From positions 62,001 through 126,000 of the forward strand of contig BEHV01000003.1 of NCBI GenBank assembly GCA_002898315.1: a stretch of DNA of 64,000 nucleotides, read 5' to 3'. The DNA is from a bacterium HR19 (GTDB lineage: Bacteria; Calescibacteriota; Calescibacteriia; Calescibacteriales; Calescibacteriaceae). Numbering within the stretch: the stretch's first letter is position 1; each line of letters opens with the position of its first letter. Shown here one piece after another: positions 7,785 to 25,713 of the stretch. Both the position numbers and the translations under genes were made by a program. The notes under the pieces were generated by a model, which was given only the letters and a program-made list of their open reading frames with translations, did not search any database and had not been told where the DNA came from.

Positions 7785-8237
7785 TCAAAATATTCTTTTT
7801 GAGTCAATAAGAATCGTGACGGGACCGTAGTTCACAAGATAGACATCCATCATAGCTCCGAACACACCTTTTTTTATTTCTTTTCCGAGTTCAGATGAGA
7901 GAGCTTCGCAGAATTTCAAATAAAATTTTTCAGCAACGCTTTTTGGAGCGGAATCTTCAAAAGATGGTCTATTTCCCCATCTCACATCACCGTAAAGTGT
8001 AAATTGAGATACAACGAGAGCGTCTCCTCCAATATCTTTTAGAGATAGATTCATTTTGCCCGAGGTATCTTCAAAAACGCGCAGATTTGCAACTCTTTTC
8101 ACAATGTATAAAACATCTTGCTCGGTATCGTCTTTTGATATTCCAAGAAGTATCAGGAGACCTAGCCCAATCTTTGATACCTCGTTCCCATCTACAAGCA
8201 CCTTTGCTTCTTTAACTCTCTGTACAACCGCTCTCAC
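7785..8237 (-). CDS. dtd: D-aminoacyl-tRNA deacylase
   Basis: Hydrolyses D-amino acids and glycine mis-attached to tRNA. The full-length 150-residue protein has both signature motifs: SQFTLYGD at about residues 78-85 and NYGPVTILIDS near the C-terminus, the region that carries the cross-subunit Gly-Pro. The start is GTG. Its upstream sequence lacks a Shine-Dalgarno site, but a perfect TATAAT on the same strand (8246-8251) ends 8 nt before the GTG, so the mRNA is probably leaderless. Confidence 0.95.
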   Translation of the reverse strand: MRAVVQRVKEAKVLVDGNEVSKIGLGLLILLGISKDDTEQDVLYIVKRVANLRVFEDTSGKMNLSLKDIGGDALVVSQFTLYGDVRWGNRPSFEDSAPKSVAEKFYLKFCEALSSELGKEIKKGVFGAMMDVYLVNYGPVTILIDSKRIF

Positions 8238-8316: not shown

Positions 8317-9921
8317 TCAGAACTTTTCAGAAGACGGTTGAGTTCTATATTTACCCGGGAAAACCTCATAAACTACCGCAGATATGAAAGAGAGCATAAT
8401 TCCCAAGATGAATATGACGGGAGCGAAAGGTATCGGAGGGTCAAGATAAGGTTTTGTTCCAACCCTTGCGGAAGCCAAAAATCCAACTATCATAAGGATA
8501 AATCCCAAAAGTAAAGTTAAAACAAAAGCAAACCTCCTCAAAAGCAAAGTTGTTCCGTATTCCGTTCTCTCAAGATTTTCTTCTTCTGGCTCTTCCCTTA
8601 TTCCCGCAGTATCAAGAGGAATAATAGGAAAAATCTTAGCAAAGATAATGTAAAGAAGGATTCCAAAACCAACCAACCCCAAAATAATGCCAATCTCCAC
8701 GGGTGAGATATGATATGAACCTTCTGGGTAAGCAAGATAAAATCCGTGAGTTTGGGAAGGAACAACAATAATGAATCTTTTGGAAACCGCAGCGACATTC
8801 ACCAGCAATGAGCTCAGTAAATTTATCCATATAAAAGTTTTTCCACTGACAAACTGATAGAATAACATAACGAAGGAAACAAGAAGGCATACAACGGTAG
8901 TCCAGAAAGGAATAGCATAAGGACCAAAAGCGATCGCGTGAGCTACTTCTCTCTCTTTACGGGGGGCTGCGTAGTTTGCAGTAAGTTCTTCAACTATCAT
9001 AAAGTATATATATGTTATTGTGAGTATCATAAGCATAGTGCCAAGTGTTCTGAAAGCTTTTTCTGTTATAACATCTTCAAGTTTGTAAATTTTTCTTCTG
9101 AGGAGATATGCTATTATTACGAGCATACCTGTTCCGGAAATTCCCGCCATTATAACAAATCCCGGCGCCTGAAGCGCAGAAAACCAACCCGGTCTCCCTG
9201 CCTGAATACCAAATATAAAACCAAGCGTTGAATGAGCAGTAACAAGCAAGGGAAGAATGAATATAGCTAACCAGAAGCTTGAGTAGGAATGTCTGAGATA
9301 ATCATCTGTTTTCCCCGAAAATCCAAGAGCCAAGATTTTGTAGAAAATCCTCAAAAACCCACGCGATCTTGAAGCCATAAACCATGCATCAGCTCTCGCC
9401 GAAAGATAAAAATAGACCAAACTGGCAAAAAGATAACCAGCAATAACCATCGTAAATGTTCCAAACATAGGAGACATAACCCTTGCGTAGCGAGGCAGGT
9501 TAAGGAGAGCATAAAGCACCCTTCCCTGATCAGCAAGGACACTCATCGCTCCAAGAATAAGAGAAATTATCGTAAGAAGCTCAGCAGGGCGTGTAAGCGG
9601 TCTTAATTCCTTCATCCCAAAAATTCTCGTAAGAGCAGAAATAGTTATTCCAGCAAAACTAATACCAATGAAATAAATAATAAAAACAACATAAAGTCCC
9701 CATGAAACACCACCATACCCCGGGGTCCGCAATCCAGTAACTATATCTCCATACTTTTCCTGTTGTGCAAAAGAGATAACACCTATAAGAATGAGAATCA
9801 GAGAGAAGATAACTGCAAGAATCCATCCTATTTTTAATTTCCCTATACTGAAAAAATCAAAAACATCAGAGACCTTATTTTCGCGGTCTTTCCTTATTTT
9901 TTCTCCTTCTCCCACTGCCAT
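8317..9921 (-). CDS. NrfD-family integral membrane quinone-interacting subunit
   Basis: NrfD/PsrC-type membrane protein of about 534 residues with roughly ten hydrophobic segments, the family that exchanges electrons with quinone at the membrane. A charged cytoplasmic N-terminus precedes the first helix (IGWILAVIFSLILILIGVI). Conserved-looking features include YGGVSWGLYVVF and internal charged pairs between helices. It is the last gene of the respiratory operon. Its ATG overlaps the stop of the iron-sulfur gene (TGATG), and an AAGGAGG sits just before, so the two are probably translationally coupled. In Qrc and alternative complex III this subunit follows the iron-sulfur protein in the same way. 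Confidence 0.9.
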   Translation of the reverse strand: MAVGEGEKIRKDRENKVSDVFDFFSIGKLKIGWILAVIFSLILILIGVISFAQQEKYGDIVTGLRTPGYGGVSWGLYVVFIIYFIGISFAGITISALTRIFGMKELRPLTRPAELLTIISLILGAMSVLADQGRVLYALLNLPRYARVMSPMFGTFTMVIAGYLFASLVYFYLSARADAWFMASRSRGFLRIFYKILALGFSGKTDDYLRHSYSSFWLAIFILPLLVTAHSTLGFIFGIQAGRPGWFSALQAPGFVIMAGISGTGMLVIIAYLLRRKIYKLEDVITEKAFRTLGTMLMILTITYIYFMIVEELTANYAAPRKEREVAHAIAFGPYAIPFWTTVVCLLVSFVMLFYQFVSGKTFIWINLLSSLLVNVAAVSKRFIIVVPSQTHGFYLAYPEGSYHISPVEIGIILGLVGFGILLYIIFAKIFPIIPLDTAGIREEPEEENLERTEYGTTLLLRRFAFVLTLLLGFILMIVGFLASARVGTKPYLDPPIPFAPVIFILGIMLSFISAVVYEVFPGKYRTQPSSEKF

Positions 9922-10796
9922 CACACCTCCTTACTTATAAATTTTCTTTTTTCTTTCGCAAGGTAAATCACCTTCGGCTCAGTCCCAAGGTGTTCTCCGA
10001 GGCGGAAAGCTCTTGGGGATTTTGCAAGTTGAGAGACGGTGCTTTCTGGGTCCGCAAGGTTGCCGAAAGTTATAGCACCTGTTGGACACACCTCCGCACA
10101 CGCGGGAAGACGGACAAGTTCTTTATCTTCTATCTCTCTATCTTCATCTCTCGCTCTCTCTTTCAATTTCCTTATTCTGTGAGAACAAAACGTGCATTTT
10201 TCAACAACACCTTTCGGACGCGTTGGAACATCGGGATTAAGCCACTGCAAGTAAGTTTCTGGCCACTCAGGTTTTTTCCAGGTGAAAAATTTTCTCTCAT
10301 ACGGACAGGAAACCTGACAGTATCTACAACCTATGCACCTATCCCATATCTGAACGACAAGTCCCTCATCGTTAATATATGTTGCTCCAACCGGGCATAC
10401 TTTGGTACAGGGTGGGTTATCACAGTGCAGGCAAGGAATGGGAATCATGTAATCCTTATCCTCCCCCGCCGGAATAAGAGACATCCACTCTATTTCTGTT
10501 CCCCTATCTCTTTCAGTGTATCCCGTTGGAGGTATATTATTTTCTATTTTGCATGCGATAACACACGCTCCGCATCCCGTGCAAAGGTCAAGGTCTATCA
10601 CCATACCCCACCTATATTTCTCGCCTGATTTACCTTCGGGTTCTTCCCCGTTTTCATTATCATTTTTACTCACAAGAGCAAAAAACTTTGAAACAAAAGA
10701 GGGAACTCCAGCAAAAATTCCCGCAATGGCAAATAGTTTGAGAAAATTTCTTTTTTCCTTTTTATTTTTTGTTTCTCTCTTTTTCTCCTCTTCCAT
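9921..10796 (-). CDS. Four-cluster ferredoxin-like electron-transfer subunit
   Basis: DmsB/PsrB/QrcC-type iron-sulfur protein, 291 residues. It has exactly 16 motif cysteines in four groups (72/75/78/82, 122/125/130/134, 154/157/160/164, 201/204/233/237), enough for four [4Fe-4S] clusters. The N-terminus carries a Tat-like signal with Lys-Arg instead of twin Arg (KRNFLK), then a hydrophobic stretch at about 20-42, suggesting export or anchoring on the periplasmic face. AAGGAGG lies 9 nt before the ATG. It sits between the MopB-like gene and the NrfD gene and should wire them together. Confidence 0.92.
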   Translation of the reverse strand: MEEEKKRETKNKKEKRNFLKLFAIAGIFAGVPSFVSKFFALVSKNDNENGEEPEGKSGEKYRWGMVIDLDLCTGCGACVIACKIENNIPPTGYTERDRGTEIEWMSLIPAGEDKDYMIPIPCLHCDNPPCTKVCPVGATYINDEGLVVQIWDRCIGCRYCQVSCPYERKFFTWKKPEWPETYLQWLNPDVPTRPKGVVEKCTFCSHRIRKLKERARDEDREIEDKELVRLPACAEVCPTGAITFGNLADPESTVSQLAKSPRAFRLGEHLGTEPKVIYLAKEKRKFISKEV

Positions 10797-10819
10797 TTTT
10801 ATCTTCCTCCTTCTTTTTC

Positions 10820-12946
10820 TTATGCTTTTTCAATCTTCACACGAGTTGTCCAGAGAGCAAGATTTCCCACAATACTTTTCAGAGGAACGATGATTTCTCG
10901 TGGGTTCGCTCCTCTGCCTTTTGCAAACCTTCCAAATGCTTTATGACCTCTGCCAAGCTCAACAAGAACAACATCAGGAGGTACCCCCTCCTTTATAAGA
11001 ACTTTTGCTTTTATTTTCCCTGTATCAGACACAACATAAACACGCTCAAAATTTGAGAGTTTGAGTTTTTCGGCAAGTTCTGGGGATATTTCAACAAAAG
11101 TTTCGTAGCTCATATAAGCAGGAAGCATTTTTATTCTTGCAGAAAGTTCCATAAGATATGGTATATTCGCACCAGAACCCTCTCCGTATGTTGTTGATTT
11201 ATAGGGTAGAAGATAGAGTCCGTCGCCCTTCCACTCGGGTTCATGCGGGGGGAGATGTGAGCAGAATCTAAATTTATCAAAGTCAGCCCATTTCTTTTCA
11301 GGGTCTTCCCACCAACCTTTCTCTTCCACCTCATCAATATCAAAGTTTTTCAGACGTTCCTTCACCGCTTCCTCAAAATCTTCCCAGTAAAATTCATCTT
11401 CAAATCCCATCTCCTTTGCTATCAGAATAATCGTGTCTCCCGTATTTTTAGTATCGTAAAGAGGATAAACAACTGGTTTCCTTATGCCGAAACCGGCAAA
11501 CGGAATTGAAGAGAAGGATTGAGCATCTTCAAATCTTTCAAGATATGTGTGGTCTGGGAGTATAATATCTGCGAAAAGAGATGTCTCGTCTTCAAATGGT
11601 GAGAAACTCACAACAAAATCAGCTTTTTCAAGTAGTTTTGCCCATCTTTCCCCCGCAGGTTCAGAATATACAGGGTTCATGTAATAGAACAAAAATGTAT
11701 CAACATCGCTGTCGGGTAAGTCAGCGAAGGGAATTTTTCTTTCCTTCGTTTTTCTTTTCACATCTTTCCAGTTTGAAAATTTAATCGGAGGCCGTAGAAC
11801 AAGTCCGCCGGGTGAATTTATACTTCCCAAAAGTGCGTTCAGACATAAAGAAAGGCAGGCAATATGAAGACCATTCGTTGTTGAAGTTGAGCGTTCATCT
11901 ACAAGAGAAATTGAGGGACGCGAATTCCACATTTCCCTTGCGATGCGAACTATATCGTGCGCAGGCACTCCTGTCTCTTTCTCAACCCTCTCCGGTGTAT
12001 ACTCCCTTGCAATTTCCCCGAACCTTTCAAATCCTTCTGTTTTTTTCTCAACGAAATCTCTGTCATACATATTTTCGGAGATCAGAACGTTTGCGATACC
12101 GAGAGCGAAAACATCATATTTTCCGGGTTTTATGGGTATCCATTCATCTGCTTGCGAGCCGGTTGCAGAAAGGAAGGGGTCAACCTGAACGATTTTCCCT
12201 CTTCTTGCAGGGTATCTATACCTTATTTCATATACCGCTCGCGCAAAGCGTATTCCATGACAAGTAGATTCAAACATAGCACTACCTAAACTTAAAATAT
12301 ACTGTGTTTTTTGAGAGTCAAATCCGGGCAGGTCCCACACTCCAAATGCTTCACGCATCGCCTCCAATATAGGTCTTGGAGAGTAAGATTTCTCAAAAAA
12401 GTCGTAGAAATTCGGAGTTCCGAGAACATCTGCGAATCTTTCAAAAAGTTCTCTTGTAAAACCTTTTGGTCTCCCGCATAAAATCGCTATTTTTCTTGAC
12501 TCCCCCTTTTCAACTTTTTCTTTCAGTTTTTGTGCTACGATTTTTATGGCTTCATCCCAGCTTATTTTTTCCCACTTTCCCTCTCCCCTTTTTCCGACTC
12601 TTTTTAGAGGGTGTTTTATTCTGTCAGGGTCGTAAAGCGTCATAATACCTGAGTTGCCCTTTGGTCCAAGAACTCCTCTATTTGGAGATGCTGCAGGATT
12701 TCCCATTATTTTAACAGCTCTTCCTTCAACAACTCTGACAATGATCCCACAATTCACAGGACACTGACCGCATACTGATTTTATGTATTTTTCTTCTCCC
12801 TCATACCATTTTTCTGCTCCGGGAACGGGAGGTTTTTTTTCAGGGAGAGAATATACATCGGCTTCGCATGATGTGAGCAGTGATAGTACAGAAATTCCCC
12901 CAACTGCCTTGAAAAATTCTCTTTTCTTTATATCTACTTCCTTCAT
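10820..12946 (-). CDS. Molybdopterin-oxidoreductase-family subunit (QrcB/ActB-like)
   Basis: MopB-family protein of 708 residues. A Tat-like signal with Lys-Arg (KKREFFK) ends in a good lipobox (LLTSC, lipidated Cys27), so it is probably a periplasmic lipoprotein. The N-terminal cluster motif keeps C59, C62 and C66, but the fourth cysteine, normally before PKG, is Gly94 (GVLGPKG). The usual Cys/Ser/Asp molybdenum-ligand region near 180-192 reads NFYDFFEKSYSP, with no clear ligand. In Qrc and alternative complex III the homologous subunit carries no molybdenum; the same is likely here, by inference. It lies between a pentaheme cytochrome and an iron-sulfur subunit, the Qrc-like order. Confidence 0.85.
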   Translation of the reverse strand: MKEVDIKKREFFKAVGGISVLSLLTSCEADVYSLPEKKPPVPGAEKWYEGEEKYIKSVCGQCPVNCGIIVRVVEGRAVKIMGNPAASPNRGVLGPKGNSGIMTLYDPDRIKHPLKRVGKRGEGKWEKISWDEAIKIVAQKLKEKVEKGESRKIAILCGRPKGFTRELFERFADVLGTPNFYDFFEKSYSPRPILEAMREAFGVWDLPGFDSQKTQYILSLGSAMFESTCHGIRFARAVYEIRYRYPARRGKIVQVDPFLSATGSQADEWIPIKPGKYDVFALGIANVLISENMYDRDFVEKKTEGFERFGEIAREYTPERVEKETGVPAHDIVRIAREMWNSRPSISLVDERSTSTTNGLHIACLSLCLNALLGSINSPGGLVLRPPIKFSNWKDVKRKTKERKIPFADLPDSDVDTFLFYYMNPVYSEPAGERWAKLLEKADFVVSFSPFEDETSLFADIILPDHTYLERFEDAQSFSSIPFAGFGIRKPVVYPLYDTKNTGDTIILIAKEMGFEDEFYWEDFEEAVKERLKNFDIDEVEEKGWWEDPEKKWADFDKFRFCSHLPPHEPEWKGDGLYLLPYKSTTYGEGSGANIPYLMELSARIKMLPAYMSYETFVEISPELAEKLKLSNFERVYVVSDTGKIKAKVLIKEGVPPDVVLVELGRGHKAFGRFAKGRGANPREIIVPLKSIVGNLALWTTRVKIEKA

Positions 12947-12964
12947 TTTTTCACCATCCCCATT

Positions 12965-13531
12965 TCATTTGTGGCACGCAATACAATCTACAACTGCACC
13001 CTTTCTCTCGTGACAACTTATGCATTTTCCCATAGTAATATGAGCAATATCAGGTTTTGAGTAGGGTTCAAGTTTTTCTTCCGCCTTGGCATGGCACTCA
13101 CCACACTCCATCTCTCCCCACACAACATGGGCTTTATGATTGAAGTAAACGTGACCGGGAAGCTTATTTACTTTTATCCATGGGACTTCTTTTCCGGCAT
13201 CAACGTATTGTGTTCGGAATTTTTCCTCCTCATCTTTGAACTCCGGGAACTGAAATTTATCAGGGGGTTCAGTATGACAATCTGAACAAACAGAAAGTTT
13301 TGGTAGCGTGGCGTGTTTTCCTTCTTTGACATATTGATGACAATCAGTACACTCAAGTTCTTCAACTTCTATGTGTACTTTGTGGCTGAAAAATATGGGT
13401 TGTTTTGCACCTTTTGCGAACTTTAAAGTTATTTTTTGAATATCTCCAAAGGTAAAGCCAAGAAAAAATGAGAATATAAAGAAAAATGCAATGAGTTTTA
13501 ATTTCTCTTTCTTTGTTCTTATCATTTTCAT
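12965..13531 (-). CDS. Pentaheme c-type cytochrome (ActA/QrcA-like position)
   Basis: Periplasmic multiheme cytochrome, 188 residues, with five CxxCH sites at 61-65, 82-86, 143-147, 170-174 and 183-187. Additional histidines (FSHKVH, FNHKAH, DIAH) are placed to act as distal ligands, as in class III/c7-type cytochromes. An N-terminal hydrophobic segment (about 11-28) serves as signal or anchor. Its ATG overlaps the stop of the preceding monoheme gene by ATGA. The gene after it is the MopB-like subunit. Alternative complex III has a pentaheme ActA and Qrc a hexaheme QrcA in the equivalent place. Confidence 0.92.
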   Translation of the reverse strand: MKMIRTKKEKLKLIAFFFIFSFFLGFTFGDIQKITLKFAKGAKQPIFFSHKVHIEVEELECTDCHQYVKEGKHATLPKLSVCSDCHTEPPDKFQFPEFKDEEEKFRTQYVDAGKEVPWIKVNKLPGHVYFNHKAHVVWGEMECGECHAKAEEKLEPYSKPDIAHITMGKCISCHERKGAVVDCIACHK

Positions 13532-13956
13532 TTGACCTTTTTCTTCAGTTCTTCAAGCCATTTTTTAATTTCCTCTTTGCTTATTTCGGTTTTTTGTTTT
13601 GCGAGCCAGTTTGCAAGAGTATCAAGGTCCTCATCGCTTCCTTTCCACTTTTCCTTATGCTTTTTCCCTTCTTCATTTGCTACCTCTTTTTTGAGCCACT
13701 TTTTTATCCAGTCAGCATCTCTTTTAACTCCAACACCAGATAAGTCATGTATCTCTTTATCTTCTTTCAGAGATTTCGGGAGAGGTTCTATTTCTTGCGC
13801 CTTTACAGAATGACACTTATTGCACTTATTTTCAATGAAGATTTCCTTTTCTGTTTTAGCGTATGCAGGAAAAGTCAAAAAACCAAAAGCAAGAGAGACC
13901 AAAAAATGAACTTTCCAACCGCCAATACTTATTCCATTCCGTTTTTTTTTATTCAT
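13528..13956 (-). CDS. Monoheme cytochrome c without a methionine ligand
   Basis: Small exported cytochrome of 142 residues with a signal peptide ending near PAYA and one heme site, CNKCH (C45, C48, H49). A class-I-like pattern follows (DLSGVGVKRDADWIKKWL). The protein has no methionine after the start codon, so the second axial ligand cannot be Met; H70 and H100 are candidates. The last third is very Lys/Glu-rich. The start follows AAGGAGGTG, and the stop overlaps the pentaheme gene start. It is probably a mobile electron carrier for the neighbouring complex. Confidence 0.85.
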   Translation of the reverse strand: MNKKKRNGISIGGWKVHFLVSLAFGFLTFPAYAKTEKEIFIENKCNKCHSVKAQEIEPLPKSLKEDKEIHDLSGVGVKRDADWIKKWLKKEVANEEGKKHKEKWKGSDEDLDTLANWLAKQKTEISKEEIKKWLEELKKKVK

Positions 13957-14048
13957 CTTATTTCACCTCCTTTTAATTTTAAATTTTCTCCGACCTTTCT
14001 CAAAGTTTCACATCTTGCGATTTCAGGCATTCATTTTTACAGAAGTTT

Positions 14049-14483
14049 TTAGTTATTAGGAGCTCCTGCTTCAATCCAGCATTTGAGTTTTGTATATTCT
14101 TCAGAACCTTCGGGTATTACCGCACCTCCACCATGCTGAACCTTCCCGCTTGCTTTTTGAAGTAGCTTGCTTTCTTCTCCTTCTTTCTCCTCAGCGCGAG
14201 CTTTTATTTTATTGTAATCGTTTGAGGCATTACCTGAAATGAAAGAAGGACCCGGTCCCGAGGTATGACAACCAGAACATTTTTGATTGAGCATAGGATA
14301 TACATCTTTTGAATATGAGACATCGGGACACTGGGTTGGCTGGATACCTCCACCACCTCCACTTCCAACCTCTTCACCTCTTTCAATAGGACCACAGCTT
14401 TGAGTGAGAGAAAGAGCAACCGCCGACAAACCCACCAGAAAAACTCCCATCAATAAACTCTTTTTGTTTAATTTCTTTTTCAT
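14049..14483 (-). CDS. Monoheme c-type cytochrome, probable lipoprotein
   Basis: 144 residues. A hydrophobic signal ends at SLTQSC (Cys30), which resembles a lipobox though Gln at -2 is unusual. A Gly-rich linker (40-46) follows, then a domain with heme site CSGCH (C69, C72, H73) preceded by SYSKDVYPML and ending LKCWIEAGAPNN. That arrangement is typical of a family of small extracytoplasmic cytochrome domains. Extra cysteines at 52 and near 132 could form a disulfide. The start follows AAGGGGTG. It lies between the outer-membrane barrel gene and the second monoheme cytochrome gene. Confidence 0.85.
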   Translation of the reverse strand: MKKKLNKKSLLMGVFLVGLSAVALSLTQSCGPIERGEEVGSGGGGGIQPTQCPDVSYSKDVYPMLNQKCSGCHTSGPGPSFISGNASNDYNKIKARAEEKEGEESKLLQKASGKVQHGGGAVIPEGSEEYTKLKCWIEAGAPNN

Positions 14484-14498
14484 GCTATTTCACCCCTT

Positions 14499-15593
14499 TT
14501 AAAATTCAAAGCCAACCATAATTCTTGCAAAATCGTCTTTCTGCTCTTTCGCCTCAACTTTCACAACATATTGGAACTGTGTAAAAAACCCTCCACGCCT
14601 ATATATGAGAGCGAAGTTATATGCGGTCTCGTCGTTCTGGTCAGCAGTATCTTTATCATAAAATGGATACTTGTAGTTCAACATCGTTTTTGTTCCGACA
14701 AGGAATCTGAAAGTCAGGTTAAGAGGAAGTTTGTAATCAATACGCAAATAATCAGAAAAGTGGAAGTAGTTTCCCATTTTCTTTGGGTCTCCTTCAACAT
14801 TTTCGTAGGCAAAACCTGCTTTAAGTGAGAGATTTTTCAGGAAAGAATAAGGTAAAAAACCGTAAGCCAAAGATACATCTCCACCCCACATAAAAAAGTT
14901 GTATCCCTTAGCGTACTGGGTCCAGTATAAAGAACCGTAAATTATAAGATGGGAGTATCCGAATTTTACCCTATCTCCTACTGCGAACCTTGAAGGGTCT
15001 GCTTTACCCAAAGAGAACTCCTTTGCAGGGTCTCCACCGGGCGCATTCACGAGAAAAAAGTCGTTTGAGAGAATTAATTTTTTATCGGGTTTTTTGAGTA
15101 TATGAGATGTGAAGACACCGCCATGCTCTGACCAAACGAAAGGCACAAACTTCTGGTCAAAACCGGTCAGTCCCCCATAGTTGTGGTGGAAAAGCGGGTC
15201 TGCACCGAAAGGTACAAGAACTTTTCCGAACTTGATCTCAACCTTTTCAAACCTCGCTCCAAATTCGTAAAAATATCTTTCAATAACCTCTGCTGTGAAG
15301 AAAAATTTATCTTCTGCTTTTCTGCGAGATATGAATATAAATTTGTGGTAATTGGTAAGAGATGGTTTCCCCTGAAATGGGTCTCCGTAAAATTCTCTCA
15401 GTTCAAAGCTGACATCAAATTTTCCGTTGATAAGAAGTCCGAACGCTTCAAAACCTTTTGACTCCTCTGATAGTGCAGAAGATACGCCTCCCGAAAATGC
15501 TAATGCTACTACCAGAGTCAATAGTACAAAAAACCTTCTTCCTCCCACCTTACTCATAATCTTTTCCTCCACTCCTTTTTCTAATCCCCCCAT
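14499..15593 (-). CDS. Outer-membrane beta-barrel (porin-like) protein
   Basis: About 364 residues. After a signal segment (RRFFVLLTLVVALAFSGG) the chain is made of alternating amphipathic strands rich in Tyr/Phe and ends in Phe (MVGFEF), the usual C-terminal signature for barrel insertion. I chose the ATG at 15593: GGGAGG sits 8 nt before it, and it follows the triheme gene stop by 19 nt. The ATG at 15557 also has a GGAGG and would give a more classical signal peptide. Its location within a cytochrome/molybdoenzyme operon suggests substrate or product passage across the outer membrane, or a role holding cytochromes at that membrane. Sequence alone does not decide. Confidence 0.7.
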   Translation of the reverse strand: MGGLEKGVEEKIMSKVGGRRFFVLLTLVVALAFSGGVSSALSEESKGFEAFGLLINGKFDVSFELREFYGDPFQGKPSLTNYHKFIFISRRKAEDKFFFTAEVIERYFYEFGARFEKVEIKFGKVLVPFGADPLFHHNYGGLTGFDQKFVPFVWSEHGGVFTSHILKKPDKKLILSNDFFLVNAPGGDPAKEFSLGKADPSRFAVGDRVKFGYSHLIIYGSLYWTQYAKGYNFFMWGGDVSLAYGFLPYSFLKNLSLKAGFAYENVEGDPKKMGNYFHFSDYLRIDYKLPLNLTFRFLVGTKTMLNYKYPFYDKDTADQNDETAYNFALIYRRGGFFTQFQYVVKVEAKEQKDDFARIMVGFEF

Positions 15594-15612
15594 TTCTACT
15601 CCTCCCTTTAAT

Positions 15613-16002
15613 TTATTTGTGGCAAATTTCACAGTCCTCTGCATCATCAACATGCCATGTTATCGTTCCATTATGACACGTCCCACAAAATTTTCCTTTA
15701 TCAAAGTCATCGTGAACCATCTTATTGCCCCCCATTTTAAAAACAGAAGGATGGCACACATAGCAATAGAACATCTCTTGATGAACAAGATGAGAAAATG
15801 TAGCAGGTCGTTCATCCGATTCCTTATCTGCTCTTTCCCAATCTCTTTCAAGAGTTATATAAGCAGGTGTCTCGTAAGTTTTAGCACTCATAACATAAAA
15901 TGCAAAAGCTGACACAATAAATAAAACAACAAAAATAGTTCTGCTTATCAAAACAAACCTCTTTCTCTTTTTTTCTGTCTCCGTTCTTTTAACTATTGCC
16001 AT
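15613..16002 (-). CDS. Membrane-anchored triheme cytochrome c (c7-like)
   Basis: 129 residues: a basic cytoplasmic N-terminus, one transmembrane anchor (about 16-38) and a periplasmic domain with three CxxCH sites at 80-84, 106-110 and 124-128. Histidines in FSHLVHQEM, KMVHDDF and TWHVDD could supply the second axial ligands, as in c7/class III cytochromes. The ATG at 16002 is preferred over one at 16050 because it begins 4 nt after the chaperone stop with a purine-rich site before it. It could relay electrons between the first-half enzyme and a membrane partner. Confidence 0.87.
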   Translation of the reverse strand: MAIVKRTETEKKRKRFVLISRTIFVVLFIVSAFAFYVMSAKTYETPAYITLERDWERADKESDERPATFSHLVHQEMFYCYVCHPSVFKMGGNKMVHDDFDKGKFCGTCHNGTITWHVDDAEDCEICHK

Positions 16003-16006
16003 TTCC

Positions 16007-16588
16007 TTATCCCCCTCTTTCTTTGTTTCCCAATTTCTCCACCTCCTCAATAATTTCCCGTGTAAATCTTTTGATTGACTTTACCAATTTTCCGTAGAGC
16101 TTGTGTTCTGGTTCTTTCATCTTTTCTATGTATTTGAGAAACTTTCCTATTGCCTTTATCTTTTCGTATTTTCTCCGCGAGAAAAGAAGGGAAATGAATT
16201 CAAAAACGCAAGAGAGATTATCTGGCATTTCATTCTGCGGAACATAGGCACATTCGGATGCGTATATTCTGTCAAGCACAGGAAGTAGAGCGGGATTTTT
16301 CTCCGGAACCCATGCCAAAAGGTAAGGGGGAATTGATGTCTCAAACATATCAATCCAATCTGCTTGTAGTTCTTCGGAAAATTGCGTCCCGATAACTTCT
16401 TCGCATAGCTCATTCAGGTAATCGGGTATAATATCGGACTCAACAAGAAGTTGGGCTATTTTCTTCGCTTTCTCAAACTTATCAAGGGTAGGATAATCAA
16501 TAAGGAGTGATAAAAATTTACATATCGCCTGATTTTTCACAACTTCTATATCTTCTGAGTGGTTCATATTTATTTTTCCGTCAACCAT
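16007..16588 (-). CDS. NarJ/TorD-family molybdoenzyme assembly chaperone
   Basis: Cytoplasmic all-helical protein of 193 residues. The pattern DWIDMFETSIPPYLLAW followed by ECAYVPQNEMPDNLSCVFEF matches the DmsD/TorD/NarJ chaperone fold. These proteins bind the Tat signal or N-terminus of a molybdoenzyme and hold it for cofactor insertion. It lies directly downstream of the Mo-enzyme and iron-sulfur genes, its expected clients. Of the two molybdopterin-family proteins in the operon, the 948-residue one with a true RR signal is the more likely client. Confidence 0.85.
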   Translation of the reverse strand: MVDGKINMNHSEDIEVVKNQAICKFLSLLIDYPTLDKFEKAKKIAQLLVESDIIPDYLNELCEEVIGTQFSEELQADWIDMFETSIPPYLLAWVPEKNPALLPVLDRIYASECAYVPQNEMPDNLSCVFEFISLLFSRRKYEKIKAIGKFLKYIEKMKEPEHKLYGKLVKSIKRFTREIIEEVEKLGNKERGG

Positions 16589-16607
16589 CTCATTTTTACC
16601 TCTTTAT

Positions 16608-17528
16608 TTATTTTTGTTCTTGCTCTATCTTTTGGTCTTTGAGTGGCTGTCCGAATGGAATATCAAGGTTTCCCCATCTTGCTACACCTTTTGCCTGCAC
16701 TCCTTTTTTCACTGGAACTATTTCAATAGGACGCGCATCTTCATCTGGTGGTTCCCCTATGTAAAAAACCTTAGGATATGTTCCTGCTTCTGGTCTCAGA
16801 ACAAAGACACCGGAATTTTCTTTTGGAACAACGACCTCCTCCTCTTTCTCTACTTTCCCGGGTCCTATCACTTTTACTTTTTTCCTTTCTATTTTTCCTT
16901 CAAGTATTTTGGATATTTCTGAATTGGGGTCATCAAGGTCTCCGAATATTATTGCGCGGGTAGGACATACCTGCCGGCAAGCGGTCACATTTATACCTTT
17001 ATCAAGTCGGTGAATGCAGAAAGTACACTTTGCAACTGTTTCTGCTCTGTGAGTTCCACCAGCAAGTCGCCTTTCTTTTTTGTTCGGGTCTCCATCCCAC
17101 TTTGATGGTTTGAGAATGTCAGGGTTAAACCACCCTACTATTCCCTCGGTATACTGTTTCACTTCTGGGTCTTCCCAATCAATATAAAGGTCTGGGTCTT
17201 CTTTTGTGTACCAGTTGACACCGTATGGGCATGCATATTCAAGAGAGCGGTCTCCTTTGAAGTTGTCGTAGTCGGTCTGAACCGTCCAGTCACGCCACAT
17301 TATTCTTGCATCATCTTTATCTGCTCTGACACAAGGAGGGTTCTGGCAGTGCATACAAGGACGAGGAAGAAATCTTACCCTTGTGTTCGGATACTCACCT
17401 TCTTCAAATCTGAAAACATACATAAAGTACACATCGCGGGGTGTAGCATTTTCTATTTTGCATGCGACCATACACGCTCTGCAACCAACACACCTTGAAA
17501 GGTCTATCGCCATTGCATATCTCGCCAT
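16608..17528 (-). CDS. Iron-sulfur subunit with three [4Fe-4S] sites
   Basis: 306-residue DmsB/PsrB-type electron-transfer subunit. It has exactly 12 cysteines: 13/16/19/23, 58/61/66, 100 and 168/171/184/188. Compared with four-cluster relatives it lacks the last cysteine of motif II and the first three of motif III. Those four bind one cluster together, so one complete cluster is gone and three intact sites remain. It has no signal peptide, so it is presumably exported by hitch-hiking on the Tat signal of its catalytic partner. The C-terminal 100 residues are basic and Val/Pro-rich. AAGGAGG precedes the ATG. Confidence 0.9.
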   Translation of the reverse strand: MARYAMAIDLSRCVGCRACMVACKIENATPRDVYFMYVFRFEEGEYPNTRVRFLPRPCMHCQNPPCVRADKDDARIMWRDWTVQTDYDNFKGDRSLEYACPYGVNWYTKEDPDLYIDWEDPEVKQYTEGIVGWFNPDILKPSKWDGDPNKKERRLAGGTHRAETVAKCTFCIHRLDKGINVTACRQVCPTRAIIFGDLDDPNSEISKILEGKIERKKVKVIGPGKVEKEEEVVVPKENSGVFVLRPEAGTYPKVFYIGEPPDEDARPIEIVPVKKGVQAKGVARWGNLDIPFGQPLKDQKIEQEQK

Positions 17529-17548
17529 AGTTTACTCTACCTCCTTTT

Positions 17549-20395
17549 TTATGCTTTATAAATTTTTACCTTAACCTGAAACGATGAATCCTGAGTCATC
17601 GCCACAAAACCTTCGGAAGCATAGAATATTTCATTGGGAGATGGCCCTCTTGGTTTCATATCCGCCCACGCACCAAGATGGTGAAAAGAAATAACAACAT
17701 CAGGTCTTATATATTCCACAAGGTTTGCTCTCATTTTCACCCATCTTCTCTCTCCAGTCATGGGGTTATAAGATTCAACATAGACCTCGTCTCCCGTGTT
17801 TATACCGAGTTCTTTCGCAACCTTACTGTTTATAAGAATAACCTGCCCCGTGGTTGGATTTTCCGGGTCTCCCTGCCACGGAGCAATATCACCAAAAATA
17901 GGAATCCACGCAGTTCTTGTCTGCTTATACTCAATCTTTTTAGCGTTAACAAAGTAGAAATTATATTCCCCCGGTGCCTTTTCCATTGTAGGTTCTCTCC
18001 ACAGCGGTACAGGGAAGTAATCTTTCACATAAATCCATTTATTCTCGTCAAGTCCGAGCTCTTTCATTTTGTCTTGCGCCTTTTTGAGCGATTCTCCCCA
18101 GAACCTCATTCTCTCACCTTTCCAGAACGACCACGCAATAGGATATACTTTTTCCGGTGGCAATTTATCAACTTCTGTCACACCGTATTTTTTGAAGTAA
18201 TCAATTCCGCTTTTACCAATTGATTTAGCCCATCTATCAAATATCTCTTCAGATGTTGGTTTTCTGCTTGTGTCAAGAGCATAACTGCCGAGATTCAAAG
18301 CAGTATTTATCTCCTCAATGTATTCTTTGAGGAATCCCCCCGCTTCTGCTATATCAAGATATATATCTATCTCACCTTTTGACTCCCAAAGGGGTGGAAC
18401 TGGGGGGATACGAAGTGTTTTTCCGGTCTCATAAACTGTCATCTCACTTAAAGGACCTTCGTATTTTTCTATTGTTGCAACGGGCAAAATTATATCTGCA
18501 AGAAGCTGAGCTCCTTCACCTAACCATGGGGTGAGAAAAACTATAAAATCAACTTTGGAGTACCCCTTGATAACCGTTGGAATATCCGGGGTTGCTCTGC
18601 CATGATGGAACATGTGGACAAACATAACCTTCGGAAGTTTTGATTCGTCAACTTCATATCTTGCGGGGTCAATAAGAACCCTTGCAAGAAAAGAGGGGTT
18701 TGGAGTTGTTATTGGGAAGTACTTTGATGAGCTCAGAGTAAAGTCATAAGGAGGTGTTTTTATATCCATTTTTCCGAAGCTTTCAAAGTTGGGGTGAGGT
18801 TTATCTTTTCCGGGTTCCGAGAGAACTCCTCCCGGAACTCCCACAGCACCAAGGAGCATATACACAAGCAAAATCGCTCGCGTCAGTTGAAATCCGTGTT
18901 CAACCTGCGCTGTGTGATAAAACATACAGCTTACAGGTCTCAAAGGAAATGTCTTATCACCTATTGTCACAGTTCTCCCCTCTTTTATTCCTGAGTGTTC
19001 CCAGAGCTCCCTCGCTATTCTTGCAGTTGTAAGAGCGGGAATATCGCATGTTTTATCTGCCCAATCAGCTGTCCACCCCTTTTCCTTAAGAATATCGTAG
19101 AATACCTCAATAGCGGGTTTTACTTCAACTTCTTCACCGGTAGCATCAAGAACTCCGCCTGAATTTACTTTAACTTTTCTATTCCACGAGACCTCATCGG
19201 TGAAAAGAAGCGGGTCTATACCATCTTGGTCAAACGGAACAATCTGACCTGTGTTTTTATCATAAACTTGAGCTTTTCCATTTGCATCCTTCACAAAGTA
19301 GTATTGTTTTTTATGATTTCTTTCGGTTATCACGAGAAAAGGAGCATTTGTGTATTTTTTGAGGTATTCTCTATCTATGAGGCGGTTTTTGAGGAGGTAG
19401 TGAGCAATTCCGAGGAAAAACGCAAGGTCTGTTCCGGGTTTTATAGGTATCCATTCATCTGAGTATGGTCCGTCGTTTCTGCGTTGCGGGTCAAGAGTCA
19501 CAAGTTTCTTGATTTGCCCTCTTGCTCTTGCGTCAATAAACATCTGGGGCCACGTGATAAAACAAAGTCTGTTCCCTCCTGAATTTGAGACAAAACCGGT
19601 TCCTACATTTATGATGTATTCGGTGTATTTGAAATCAGGATTTACAACCGCACTCTGACCGATAGTATATTCAGTTGCCCTGTACCCAGCATCTGAACAG
19701 AAAGCTCCGTGTCCAATTTTATATACTTTGTGTCCCACTTTTTTGAGAGCATTTGGAAATGCTGTATCGTATAGCTCTCCCGATTTGCTTCTCCCTTTTT
19801 GCCAGAGTACATATTCCCCTTTTGCTTTTGCTTCATTTAGCCTATCTGCTATCGTCTTGAGAGCTTCGTCCCAAGATATTCTGACAAATCTTCCTTTCTG
19901 CCCCTTTGCATTTATTCTTTTGAGAGGGTATTTGATTCTGTTTGGAGCGTAAAGTGCGGTAATATTTGCTCCCACACCTTTTGGACACAAAGTTCCTCTG
20001 TTTCTTGGATTATAAAGAAGGTTTGGATCCCCTTTCCAGATTTTATCTGGCAAAAATTCAATCTCACCTGTTTGCTTGTTTATAACAAGTCCATCTGCTT
20101 TTACGACTCTTTTTATCTCCTTACCATTTACCTTCTGAGTAACAACCCTGTAGAAAAGAGAGCAATCTTGCTTACCTATCCAGCAAGTTGATGAAATAAA
20201 TTCCTCGGTATAGTCAGTGGGGTACCAGTCATGATATGTCGGCGAAGGGGTCGGAGGAATTTCCTCCCCTCCCGTGGGTTTTTTGGGGGGAGCACAGGCG
20301 ATTTTTTCAAGAGCAAGAAGCCCTGTCAGAGCTCCCACACTCTGCAGAAACCTTCTTCTCGCAGAATCAACATTCTGGTGTTTATCCTTACCCAT
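17549..20395 (-). CDS. Tat-exported molybdopterin oxidoreductase, catalytic subunit
   Basis: Large 948-residue bis-MGD enzyme of the DMSO-reductase superfamily. It has a genuine Tat signal (SARRRFLQ, Arg13-15). The N-terminal cluster ligands are C71, C78 and C137 (GTLCPKG). The position of the second cysteine is Gly74, so C-x2-G-x3-C replaces C-x2-C-x3-C, and a [3Fe-4S] or absent cluster is possible. A Cys in GHGAFCSDAG fits the molybdenum-ligand position used by polysulfide/arsenate/tetrathionate-type enzymes. The C-terminal dinucleotide-binding domain is present. Its substrate is unknown. It is the first gene of the operon, with GAGGAGG before the ATG. Confidence 0.88.
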   Translation of the reverse strand: MGKDKHQNVDSARRRFLQSVGALTGLLALEKIACAPPKKPTGGEEIPPTPSPTYHDWYPTDYTEEFISSTCWIGKQDCSLFYRVVTQKVNGKEIKRVVKADGLVINKQTGEIEFLPDKIWKGDPNLLYNPRNRGTLCPKGVGANITALYAPNRIKYPLKRINAKGQKGRFVRISWDEALKTIADRLNEAKAKGEYVLWQKGRSKSGELYDTAFPNALKKVGHKVYKIGHGAFCSDAGYRATEYTIGQSAVVNPDFKYTEYIINVGTGFVSNSGGNRLCFITWPQMFIDARARGQIKKLVTLDPQRRNDGPYSDEWIPIKPGTDLAFFLGIAHYLLKNRLIDREYLKKYTNAPFLVITERNHKKQYYFVKDANGKAQVYDKNTGQIVPFDQDGIDPLLFTDEVSWNRKVKVNSGGVLDATGEEVEVKPAIEVFYDILKEKGWTADWADKTCDIPALTTARIARELWEHSGIKEGRTVTIGDKTFPLRPVSCMFYHTAQVEHGFQLTRAILLVYMLLGAVGVPGGVLSEPGKDKPHPNFESFGKMDIKTPPYDFTLSSSKYFPITTPNPSFLARVLIDPARYEVDESKLPKVMFVHMFHHGRATPDIPTVIKGYSKVDFIVFLTPWLGEGAQLLADIILPVATIEKYEGPLSEMTVYETGKTLRIPPVPPLWESKGEIDIYLDIAEAGGFLKEYIEEINTALNLGSYALDTSRKPTSEEIFDRWAKSIGKSGIDYFKKYGVTEVDKLPPEKVYPIAWSFWKGERMRFWGESLKKAQDKMKELGLDENKWIYVKDYFPVPLWREPTMEKAPGEYNFYFVNAKKIEYKQTRTAWIPIFGDIAPWQGDPENPTTGQVILINSKVAKELGINTGDEVYVESYNPMTGERRWVKMRANLVEYIRPDVVISFHHLGAWADMKPRGPSPNEIFYASEGFVAMTQDSSFQVKVKIYKA

Positions 20396-20666: not shown

Positions 20667-20672
20667 TAAATT
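20667..20672 (+). promoter_or_regulatory. -10-like box before moeA
   Basis: TAAATT ends 7 nt before the moeA ATG, with a weak -35 (TTCTCA) 18 bp upstream. The repeat operator lies upstream of that -35, where an activator would bind. Confidence 0.35.
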
Positions 20673-20679
20673 GATTGAT

Positions 20680-21900
20680 ATGCACAGCAGGGAACCAAAA
20701 GAAAAGAAATTTGAGGCATATTACATCACTTTTGAAGAAGCAAGAGAACTACTGAGAAAGAATGTCCCCTTACTTGAAAAAATCACAATAGATGTTTCAG
20801 AATCAGCAGGATATGTTCTTGGAGAAGACATAAAAGCCCCCATAAGTATTCCGCCATTTCCAAACTCATCTATGGATGGCTATGCAATAAAAGGAATAGA
20901 CAGAGAGGTATTCAGGATTGTTGGTGAAGTAAAACCGGGTTATTTTCCAAAACTGAAACTCAGAGACGGTGAGGCGGTAAAAGTTTTCACTGGCTCGCCA
21001 ATACCACAAAACGCAGATGCAGTAGTTATGATAGAAAACACAGCAGAAGAAAACGGATACATAAAGGTCTTGAGAAAACCTCAAAATAGAGAAAATATAA
21101 GAGAAAAAGGAGAGGAGATAAAAAAAGGAGAGATTGTACTGAGAAAAAACTCCATTATAACCCCTCCTATTGCGGGACTTATAAGCGAGCTTGGACTCGC
21201 AAAAGTGAAAGTATTCAGAAAACCAAAAGTTTTCGCTCTTGTCTCAGGAGATGAAGTAATAAAACCCGGGAAAAAACTCAAACCGGGAAAAATCTATGAT
21301 GCCAACTTCGCTATCTTGGAAAATTCGCTCAGAGAGCTCGGAATAGAAGAATTCAGAATAAAGATGGTAAAAGACAATCCAGAAGAAATTGAAAAACAAA
21401 TCAGAGAAGGCGTAAGATGGGCAGACATAATAATAACTTCTGGTGGTATATCTGTGGGAGATAGGGACTTTATAAGAGATGTTGTGATGGGAATTGCCAC
21501 CCCTATTTTTTACAAAGTGAAGCAGAAACCCGGAAAACCGCTGTTTTTTGGCAAAATCGGGAAAAAACTTATATTTTGTCTTCCGGGCAATCCTGCCTCC
21601 GCATATATTCTATTTTTTGAGTATGTCGCACCCGCAATAAGAATGATGATGGGAACACGCAACCCATTCCCGCCCGAAGCAGAAAAAATATTAGCAGAAA
21701 GTATACAGAGAAAAAAAGCAGAACGAATGCTGTTTATGAGAGGAAAAATTTCTGGCGATTATGTCGTTCCGCTTGAAAAACAGGAATCGTATATGCTTTC
21801 ATCTTTTGCAGAAGCAGATTGCCTTATAATAGTCCCCGAAGGCGCAAACTCAATTGAAAAAGGCGAGAAAGTAAAAGTCCATCTCCTTCACCACTGCTAA
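20680..21900 (+). CDS. moeA: Molybdopterin molybdenumtransferase
   Basis: Inserts molybdate into adenylylated molybdopterin to give molybdenum cofactor. Full length (about 406 residues) with the MoeA domains in order: an N-terminal region ending in the PPFPNSSMDGYAIKG segment; the MoeA_N core (VFTGSPIPQNADAVVMIE); the MPT-binding fold with ITSGGISVGDRDF and KPGKPLFFGK, then FCLPGNPASA; and a C-terminal barrel. I prefer the ATG at 20680 to an in-frame TTG at 20671. No Shine-Dalgarno is visible. It is divergent from the molybdoenzyme operon and convergent with the rest of the molybdenum-cofactor cluster. Confidence 0.96.
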   Translation: MHSREPKEKKFEAYYITFEEARELLRKNVPLLEKITIDVSESAGYVLGEDIKAPISIPPFPNSSMDGYAIKGIDREVFRIVGEVKPGYFPKLKLRDGEAVKVFTGSPIPQNADAVVMIENTAEENGYIKVLRKPQNRENIREKGEEIKKGEIVLRKNSIITPPIAGLISELGLAKVKVFRKPKVFALVSGDEVIKPGKKLKPGKIYDANFAILENSLRELGIEEFRIKMVKDNPEEIEKQIREGVRWADIIITSGGISVGDRDFIRDVVMGIATPIFYKVKQKPGKPLFFGKIGKKLIFCLPGNPASAYILFFEYVAPAIRMMMGTRNPFPPEAEKILAESIQRKKAERMLFMRGKISGDYVVPLEKQESYMLSSFAEADCLIIVPEGANSIEKGEKVKVHLLHHC

Positions 21901-21931: not shown

Positions 21932-22897
21932 TTATATTTTTCTCTCTTTTTTCTCATTCGCTTTTTTTACTCTTCCCTTTTTATCATCATGTCTCCCACC
22001 CCTGAGCATGGGGTATATGTGGAAAATATAAGGGAAGAGGGCATCCATAGATTCTTTTGCTCCGCGAGATGAACCCGGCAGAGTCAAGATAAGCGTTTTT
22101 CTGTTCGCATGAACTCCCGCAATACCACGCGAAAGCATGGAGTAAGGAGTTCTCTCCTGCCCATAAGCCCTTGCTGATTCCATTATTGCCGGGATTTCCT
22201 TTTCAATAAGAGGTTCTACCGCCTCGGGAGTGGTGTCACGAGGAGAAAGACCTGTCCCCCCCGTGGTTATAACAAGGTCATAACCATCATCACACCACTT
22301 TTTCACTTCATTATAAATCATATCTTTTTCATCTGGAACTATTTTGTAATCAATTTTTTTGACGCCAAATTCTTTGAGTTTTTCAACGATGATTTTTCCT
22401 GATTTATCTTCTTTTTTGCCTGCCGCCACCGAATCTGAAACAACAAGAACCCCTACCCTGAAATCGTCAGAAACTTTCTCAATAAAATCTGATTTACCTC
22501 CTTTTTTCTCAACAAGTTTGACCTCCTCAATTTTCAGGTTTTTATCAACAGGTTTGAGCATATCATATATGTTCAGGGCAGACACCATTGCAGCAAAAAG
22601 TGCTTCCATCTCACAACCCGTTCTCGCTATTGATTTTACGGTAACAGAAACATTTATTCTGTTTCCCTCTATTGAGAAATTCACATCAACATGTTCAACA
22701 GGTATGTTGTGGCAGAAAGGAAGAATTTCTGCAACTTTTTTCGCAGAAAGACAAGCAATCGCTCTGCTCACCTCAAAAATATCACCTTTCGGACTTTTAC
22801 CGCTTTCCACTAACTCCTTTGAAGAATCTGAAAAAGAAATAACCGCTTCTGCTGTTGCAACTCTCAATGTTTTTATCTTTGAAGATACATCTATCAT
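21932..22897 (-). CDS. MoaC-MoaB/MogA fusion, bifunctional molybdenum cofactor enzyme
   Basis: The N-terminal half (about 1-150) is MoaC, cyclic pyranopterin monophosphate synthase, with GKSPKGDIFEVSR, LPFCHNIPVEH and CEMEALFAA. The C-terminal half (about 165-310) is a MogA/MoaB-type molybdopterin adenylyltransferase with VLVVSDSVAAG and TTGGTGLSPRDTTPEA. A Lys-rich tail follows. One polypeptide therefore covers an early and a late step of the pathway. GGAGG lies 12 nt before the ATG. It is the last gene of the minus-strand molybdenum-cofactor cluster. MoaC-MoaB fusions are known in other bacteria. Confidence 0.95.
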   Translation of the reverse strand: MIDVSSKIKTLRVATAEAVISFSDSSKELVESGKSPKGDIFEVSRAIACLSAKKVAEILPFCHNIPVEHVDVNFSIEGNRINVSVTVKSIARTGCEMEALFAAMVSALNIYDMLKPVDKNLKIEEVKLVEKKGGKSDFIEKVSDDFRVGVLVVSDSVAAGKKEDKSGKIIVEKLKEFGVKKIDYKIVPDEKDMIYNEVKKWCDDGYDLVITTGGTGLSPRDTTPEAVEPLIEKEIPAIMESARAYGQERTPYSMLSRGIAGVHANRKTLILTLPGSSRGAKESMDALFPYIFHIYPMLRGGRHDDKKGRVKKANEKKERKI

Positions 22898-23039
22898 AAC
22901 ACTTCTTCACCTCCTTTCTCAACTTCAAATCTGTGAAACAATAAATAATCTGCAAATGATAAAATCAAATTAAGAGAAAATCGGTAGAAAAATGCAAAAA
23001 AATCTCTCTATCACCTATGAATTTTATCCTATGAGCGTC

Positions 23040-23780
23040 TCAAAAAATTAGAAGTTTTGTTCCAGCTATTATCAGAACCACGGCGAGAAGTTTTTTTACT
23101 GTATCTTGTGAGAACTTATTCAAAGTCATATAATTTCCCAGATATCCCCCCACAAGAACTATAAGGGCAAAAATTAAGATGTTTTTCACATCTCCGATAT
23201 TTAATTTTCCGACACGCGGGATGATTCCTACAATTGAATTCAAGAGTATGAAAGCACTACTCAGCGCCGCAGTCCTTATAGGCTCCATTATCCTGAAAAT
23301 AATAAGAACAGGACTTAGAAAAATTCCCCCTCCAACTCCTGTCATTCCGCTCAAAAAACCTATGGAAGAGCCAAGCAAAAATCCATAAGGTAAATCAATT
23401 TTATTTTTGAAACTTTGATTTTTACCATCATTACCAACTTTCATAAAAAGGCGAAAAGCGGAGAAGATGAGAACAAGTCCTATAACTTTTGACAAAATCT
23501 CTCGCTCAACTTTTAAAGACGCTCCCAAAAACGCAGATGGCATTGAAAAAACAATAATTCTGAGAAGTGATGGGACGTCAAGCAATCTGCGGGAATAAAA
23601 TCGCAAAGCACCTATACCCGAAACAATTATATTCAAACCTAAGGAGAACGCCGGGATTTTCTCAACGGGAAAATTTACAAGAGAAAAAACAGCAATATAT
23701 CCTGATCCTCCACCGTGTCCCACAGTCGCGTATAAAAACGCAACCACAAAAAGCCCCACATAAAGAAAGAAATCCGCCAT
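23040..23780 (-). CDS. TauE/SafE family anion permease
   Basis: Integral membrane protein, 246 residues, about eight hydrophobic segments. The two Gly-rich repeats typical of the family are visible: ATVGHGGGSGYIAVFSL near the N-terminus and GMTGVGGGIFLSPVLI near the middle. Characterised members export sulfite, sulfoacetate or other sulfur oxyanions. It sits between moaE and moaC-moaB on the same strand, 14 bp after moaE, so it is probably co-transcribed with cofactor genes. A link to sulfur metabolism of the neighbouring molybdoenzyme is possible but unproven. Confidence 0.88.
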   Translation of the reverse strand: MADFFLYVGLFVVAFLYATVGHGGGSGYIAVFSLVNFPVEKIPAFSLGLNIIVSGIGALRFYSRRLLDVPSLLRIIVFSMPSAFLGASLKVEREILSKVIGLVLIFSAFRLFMKVGNDGKNQSFKNKIDLPYGFLLGSSIGFLSGMTGVGGGIFLSPVLIIFRIMEPIRTAALSSAFILLNSIVGIIPRVGKLNIGDVKNILIFALIVLVGGYLGNYMTLNKFSQDTVKKLLAVVLIIAGTKLLIF

Positions 23781-23794
23781 AGCAAAAACCTATT

Positions 23795-24241: not shown

Positions 24242-24248
24242 TTTTGTT

Positions 24249-24524: not shown

Positions 24525-24562
24525 TTTCTTTCCTATCTCTTTATTTTGATGTGGAATTATAT

Positions 24563-25639: not shown

Positions 25640-25713
25640 TTTAGCCCAAAGCAGTTTTTTTTAAATTCGGGAACAGCTTATGAAAATCAACACTATACAA
25701 CTTATCTTTTCGT

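Follow-up and report, generated by a model that had tools for sequence, protein, structure and literature searches.

The pairing of a MopB enzyme with an NrfD-type quinone complex is of a known kind. In the extracellular DMSO reductase system DmsEFAB of Shewanella, a molybdenum enzyme, an iron-sulfur (FeS) subunit, a chaperone, a multiheme cytochrome and a barrel are encoded in one run. By established redox potentials, electron transfer from arsenite to menaquinone is uphill, and that from menaquinol to arsenate is downhill. The Qrc complex runs from cytochrome c to menaquinone, and its reversible operation is on record (PMC6303296). A C-x2-C-x3-C FS0 motif has been described for Arr, Unk and Psr (PMC2500031), and the ArrA set of a cold-seep arsenic study clusters with known ArrA (PMC10060404).

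Here, we describe eleven genes (g1 to g11) in a 64-kb stretch of bacterial DNA (hereafter the window, meaning the whole stretch analyzed). These neighboring genes appear to encode an undescribed molybdenum enzyme, probably one that handles arsenic, together with the cytochromes through which, by way of a mosaic membrane complex, it would be connected to the respiratory quinones of the cell.

Results

All eleven ORFs lie on the minus strand at positions 8317-20395, and the ORF check left these limits as first stated. The intergenic distances from g1 to g11 are 20, 19, −44, −41, 15, 92, −4, 18, 23 and −4 bp, in agreement with the one-strand run of short gaps and overlaps proposed in an earlier sequence-only reading; the widest gap (92 bp) separates g6 from g7, and every other junction is at most 23 bp or overlapping. 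CxxCH motifs number three in g4, one each in g6 and g7, five in g8 and zero in the remaining seven ORFs, which bears out the predicted triheme, two monoheme and pentaheme cytochromes. Pfam and NCBIfam matches comprised two MopB proteins, two Fe-S proteins, a triheme c7 domain, a class I cytochrome c (g7), a QrcA-like pentaheme protein (g8) and NrfD (g11). Beyond g11, the same-strand run goes on toward 7785-8237 after a gap of 79 bp, so the downstream end of the predicted operon is not fixed. Promoter-like sites in a sequence scan were not above shuffle expectation; one, which was weak, falls in the g6/g7 gap (13976-14003, minus strand), and no terminator-like site was seen at that border. Neither Rfam elements within the window nor a compositional signal of foreign DNA in the gene run were found.

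The window genome (1.88 Mb, 82% complete) belongs to a phylum of only five genomes, all of one family. Its assembly contains three MopB proteins, namely g1, g9 and the ActB of an alternative complex III (ACIII) operon on another contig, and g1 alone has the Cys Mo ligand. Divergent from g1 lies moeA (Moco synthesis; 20671-21900, plus strand), and beyond it a Moco cluster (21932-26403, minus strand) of a moaC-mog fusion, a TauE/SafE-type permease, moaE, moaA and mobA, all by Pfam and NCBIfam. Because only g1 has the Mo ligand, these adjoining genes probably serve g1 above all among DMSO-reductase-type enzymes. The permease (23040-23780, minus strand) is placed within the synthesis cluster itself and might export sulfite, sulfonate or another anion. 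The ACIII operon of this genome is a true one (L045, G000:C1:18000-28000), with a pentaheme ActA, a fused ActB of 1038 aa, ActC, and ActD-like, monoheme ActE-like and ActF-like proteins; the operon also occurs in three other genomes of the family (L046-L048) and partially in a second member of the genus (G001).

The catalytic subunit g1 (17549-20395), characterized by profiles, alignment, tree and model, belongs to a Mo/W-bisPGD family with the signature CWIGKQ[DE]C. It is a full-length enzyme-type MopB protein of the DMSO reductase superfamily, with the molybdopterin fold, the dinucleotide-binding domain, a Tat signal and a Cys metal ligand (C233), and its FS0 motif is C-x2-G-x3-C. Scores against NCBIfam models were highest for PhsA (125.1 bits; cut-off, 694), followed by the type II DMSO reductase model TIGR03479 (103.5; 984.75), ArrA (83.2; 1600) and TtrA (50.1; 1750). 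In the MopB tree, the g1 family formed a separate clade (support 100) that has an uncharacterized sister group and lies outside the ArrA-like, TtrA-like and Psr/Phs-like sequences and the type II clade. Identity with ArrA or ArxA was ruled out by score, FS0 motif and a tree position outside the ArrA clade, and identity with PhsA or PsrA by a score far under the cut-off and a separate tree position. Score, tree and gene order (A-B here vs BCA in TtrA systems) ruled out TtrA, and the Cys rather than Asp ligand together with the score ruled out a type II DMSO reductase. With the AlphaFold2 model of g1 (pLDDT 83), the top Foldseek match was ArrA (6cz7, E = 1.5e-39), and in VIA-align PsrA (Z = 28.9) tied with ArrA (28.4) and others. 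Judged by its sequences, the g1 clade is an undescribed Mo/W-bisPGD family: no description of it was found in the literature searched (open-licence papers), and the main text of the SAR202 culture paper does not mention sulfite, molybdo-, reductase, thiosulfate, tetrathionate or DMSO.

Next to g1, g2 (16608-17528) encodes a multi-cluster [4Fe-4S] electron-transfer subunit (Pfam/NCBIfam), which has no signal of its own and is presumably exported together with g1. The product of g3 (16007-16588) has no Pfam match, and hhalign relates it to the TorD/NarJ-type chaperones of relatives (probability 87%, E = 4e-6); the molybdenum enzyme, iron-sulfur subunit and chaperone predicted for the front half are thus recovered. 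By heme motifs and further evidence, g4 (15613-16050) is a membrane-anchored triheme c7-type cytochrome (Pfam/NCBIfam), g6 (14049-14483) a monoheme cytochrome and possible lipoprotein, and g7 (13528-13956) a class I monoheme cytochrome c (Pfam). For g5 (14499-15653), the prediction of an outer-membrane beta-barrel stood in part, as the protein has a signal-like N-terminus, no Cys and a C-terminal Phe, which are the features that the prediction rests on, but it has no family match. In the loci searched it had no relative, its similarity to a porin-like protein of L061 was not significant, and its AlphaFold2 model reached a pLDDT of 31.

The rear module consists of g8 (12965-13531), a QrcA-like pentaheme cytochrome (NCBIfam, heme motifs); g9 (10820-12946), a QrcB-like MopB protein with a Tat-like/lipobox N-terminus and no Cys Mo ligand (NCBIfam, alignment, tree); g10 (9921-10796), a QrcC-like multi-cluster Fe-S subunit (NCBIfam); and g11 (8317-9924), an NrfD-type quinone-reacting membrane subunit (identity, tree). 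The FS0 motif of g9 is C-x2-C-x3-C, and the protein falls in the ArrA/QrcB/ActB clade of the MopB tree. The two MopB proteins therefore differ in ancestry, as had been proposed, and the tree does not place both modules inside one known complex. Although g8 to g10 group with Qrc-like proteins (for g10, identity is about 55% to QrcC-like proteins in most of the stand-alone Qrc-like operons found), their scores against the QrcA, QrcB and QrcC models (111.6, 348.6 and 264.1 bits) did not reach the cut-offs (180, 440 and 400). Compared with g11, the NrfDs of g1-family loci were mostly 35-54% identical, the NrfDs of Qrc-like operons about 33% and the ActC encoded in the window genome 28%. In the NrfD tree, g11 was inside the g1-family clade (support 99/99), and forcing it together with Qrc-like NrfDs, which were taken from genomes and not from Desulfovibrio vulgaris itself, was 330 log units worse (AU test, p-AU = 7e-66). 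Because g8 to g10 are Qrc-like and g11 belongs to the g1-family NrfD clade, the rear complex looks like a mosaic. Hence, the Qrc/ACIII-like reading of the rear half held for the Qrc-like gene order and not for identity: the missed cut-offs and the NrfD ancestry ruled out Qrc, and the unfused B and C genes, the lack of ActD/E/F and the NrfD ancestry ruled out ACIII, of which the genome has a separate, true copy.

In G001, a second species of the genus, g8 to g11 are present at 56-67% identity on a contig that ends inside g8, and g1 and g2 were not detected in that genome; the other three genomes of the family contain neither module. In other genomes, Qrc-like modules are found by themselves. 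One Qrc-like operon (L150 5261-10422, G367:C37) has a MopB protein that retains the Cys metal ligand and scores 450 bits against the ArrA model, with a probable chaperone gene behind NrfD; some QrcB-like proteins, as in L150, may thus be catalytic.

We investigated the distribution of the g1 family among genomes. A search of 386 genomes returned proteins 43-57% identical to g1 in five other genomes, and the only full-length relative in a plasmid collection was 28% identical. Scanning the family alignment against named genomes gave 85 loci (on about 85 named contigs), of which 80 were retained. The loci belong to Chloroflexota (including SAR202), Acidimicrobiia, Rokubacteria, Methylomirabilota, Nitrospinota, Tectomicrobia and archaea. 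The signature CWIGKQ[DE]C represents an FS0 motif with the second Cys changed to Gly, and the C-x2-G-x3-C pattern was present in 66 of 69 family proteins; the Cys at the Mo/W ligand position was invariant across a 32-sequence alignment. Among the 65 loci with enough flank, 60 have the order MopB-FeS-NrfD; a TorD-like chaperone and a ferredoxin-type protein commonly come next, and a sensor-kinase-regulator set is often present as well. NrfD is missing in the other five, two of which (L072 and L082) bear a diheme cytochrome instead. The nearest relative of g1 is that of genome G154 (locus L058; support 99), where no NrfD is behind FeS and the locus adjoins cytochromes of 9, 11 and 16 hemes. The window g1-g2 belong to the same cytochrome-linked style as G154. 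A QrcABC-like module beside a g1-family MopB gene was found in none of the 80 loci, so that the genome search for the same gene order, suggested at the outset, found the joined layout only in the window. Because g1 and g11 have their nearest relatives in different organisms, the run probably came together from separate sources and not through the move of one intact NrfD.

Two neighborhoods may be recorded here. In Thermomicrobium (L091 516-3790), genes that resemble those for subunits of the aerobic CO-dehydrogenase/xanthine-oxidase type, as judged by eye from the sequence, lie upstream of a g1-family operon. In a sister-family genome (G003:C8:9087-11612, L204), a TtrA-like MopB gene (418 bits) takes the place of g1, and an FeS partner is on the same contig.

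The sequence-only reading had left the substrate blank, a point that no longer stands, as arsenic sensors of the ArrX type and ars genes are encoded in operons of g1 relatives. Of the g1-family loci, 23 encode ArrX/AioX-type periplasmic binding proteins. Against PDB, the sensor of L115 matched ArrX best (221 bits; AioX, 158; the phosphite binder PtxB, 85), as did that of L058 (ArrX, 181 bits; AioX, 113), and phosphite or phosphonate binders scored 85 bits or less for both sensors compared. At the six AioX pocket positions compared, Tyr88, Cys106, Ser161, Ser/Thr163, His192 and Asp210 were kept in all aligned sensors of relatives; the residue list is from a published account, according to which pocket residues by themselves do not determine the sensor ligand (PMC5908839). 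Furthermore, 5 of the 85 loci, G154 included, have ACR3 arsenite-efflux genes in the flanks that were fetched, and several of these loci also have ArsC and ArsM-like neighbors, judged by motif. Given a background of roughly 0.12 ACR3 genes per Mb (about 52 genes over the cut-off in 145 genomes), 0.14 would be expected in 1.21 Mb (P ~ 4e-7); even on a generous density, the expectation is 0.4 (P ~ 6e-5). In L058, an ORF with ACR3 and ArsC-type motifs (537-2261, minus strand), apparently a fusion, lies beside the multiheme cytochromes and the G154 g1 homologue. Taken together, these sequence comparisons make an arsenic oxyanion the most likely substrate. Since neither an ArrX-like sensor nor ACR3 was found in the window genome (82% complete), arsenic is assigned to the window enzyme by kinship. 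In L152 (2456-10695), genes for an ArrX-like sensor, a kinase and a regulator immediately precede a Qrc-like QrcABCD operon, and the stretch fetched contains no g1; this would be arsenic-type sensing for a complex like Qrc, and therefore the ArrX-like sensor may not track g1 alone.

Discussion

From gene content, families, ancestry and the layout in relatives, we infer how the complex is assembled, its electron route, its substrate and its direction. The g1-g2 enzyme, matured by g3 and exported by the Tat pathway, would be a periplasmic Mo/W oxyanion oxidoreductase without a dedicated membrane anchor. The c-type cytochromes g4, g6 and g7 would carry electrons between it and the pentaheme g8, and the g8-g9-g10-g11 complex would exchange electrons with menaquinone at g11. 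In this complex, g9 would be a Mo-less structural or electron-relay protein, as in Qrc and ACIII, and g11 a g1-family NrfD seated under QrcA/B/C-like subunits; the predicted barrel g5 might allow substrate entry or provide an outer-membrane link. Quinone docking, as found in the usual MopB-FeS-NrfD enzyme, has probably passed to the mosaic complex. The two halves do share one run, as the sequence-only reading held, but their joining would replace the direct NrfD quinone link usual in relatives instead of adding a link. Electron flow from menaquinol to arsenate is favored because it is downhill and because the family as a rule has a direct NrfD link. That all this forms one respiratory path, with menaquinol to arsenate as the most likely direction and substrate, has in our judgment about an even chance.

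The same wiring could also run in reverse, with g1-g2 oxidizing arsenite or a similar reduced oxyanion and the cytochromes delivering the electrons to an oxidase or the quinone pool, in the manner of Arx/Aio-like lithotrophy. Qrc itself operates from cytochrome c to menaquinone (PMC6303296), many g1-family members come from marine groups (SAR202 and Acidimicrobiia, for example), an FS0 site minus one Cys recalls high-potential [3Fe-4S] enzymes, and the family genomes share a separate, conserved ACIII operon. However, electron transfer from arsenite to menaquinone is uphill, the sensors of relatives are closer to ArrX (arsenate) than to AioX (arsenite), and the NrfD partner in 60 of 65 loci suggests coupling to quinone, so we regard reversal as unlikely.

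It is rather improbable that two independent units happen to adjoin, with g1-g6 as an enzyme that has cytochromes and a barrel to itself and may connect to the outer membrane, and g7-g11 as a general cytochrome c:quinone complex that works for other enzymes. The 92-bp gap and the promoter-like site do coincide with the g6/g7 border, g8-g11 occur in G001, where neither g1 nor g2 was detected, and Qrc-like modules stand alone elsewhere; against this, all the spacing is tight, the border shows no terminator-like site, g11 comes from an NrfD clade whose usual partners are g1-type enzymes, and the window g1-g2 are without their customary NrfD.

A sulfur oxyanion substrate (thiosulfate, tetrathionate or sulfite), with g1 functionally a distant Phs/Ttr/Soe-like enzyme, seems doubtful: PhsA is the top NCBIfam match of g1 (125 bits), a TauE/SafE permease occurs among the Moco genes and, in G350 (L059/L203), a TtrA-like gene (L059 1-2514; TtrA model, 428 bits) is immediately upstream of the g1 homologue, but g1 is far under the PhsA and TtrA cut-offs, its clade is apart from the TtrA-like and PhsA/Psr-like rows, and the sensors and resistance genes of relatives indicate arsenic.

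We tentatively suggest, as a possibility short of an even chance, that the g1 family is a widespread, undescribed clade of respiratory Mo enzymes for arsenic oxyanions, and that a quinone anchor of the type found in this clade moved into a Qrc-like cytochrome complex in the window lineage and so gave a new type of cytochrome-bridged chain. If so, an unassigned MopB clade of ocean, groundwater and hot-spring lineages would gain a testable substrate, namely arsenic oxyanions, and arsenic respiration would extend to groups not known for it. NrfD quinone modules would also be exchangeable between Mo enzymes and Qrc/ACIII-type cytochrome complexes, and the mosaic rear complex would be a concrete evolutionary step in the rebuilding of respiratory complexes. 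In keeping with the initial impression that the combination was undescribed, the literature searched contained no account of the g1 clade, of the mosaic complex or of a run that unites them.

Among known systems, DmsEFAB differs from the window in that g4 is a triheme c7 cytochrome rather than an MtrA-like decaheme, g5 does not match MtrB-type barrels and g1 is of another Mo family. Like the rear module, ACIII (ActABCDEF) combines a pentaheme cytochrome, a Mo-less MopB protein, an Fe-S protein and NrfD, and g9 is in the wider ActB clade; however, ACIII has a fused ActB and ActD/E/F, whereas g9 and g10 are separate genes and ActD/E/F are lacking. QrcABCD of Desulfovibrio vulgaris (PMC6303296) shares with g8-g11 the order multiheme-MopB-like-FeS-NrfD, a B subunit without the Cys Mo ligand and periplasmic subunits above an NrfD-type membrane protein, but it has six hemes against the five heme motifs of g8, and its NrfD clade differs. 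ArrAB(C) and ArxAB resemble g1-g2 as Tat-exported, Cys-ligand MopB enzymes with a multi-cluster FeS subunit, and they resemble the relatives of g1 in the NrfD-like anchor of most and in the ArrX/AioX-type sensor-kinase-regulator set, whereas the FS0 motif is C-x2-C-x3-C in Arr and C-x2-G-x3-C in g1. Finally, PsrABC/PhsABC and TtrABC have the same MopB-FeS-NrfD composition as the g1 family, and Psr and Phs also share the ABC gene order of g1 relatives.
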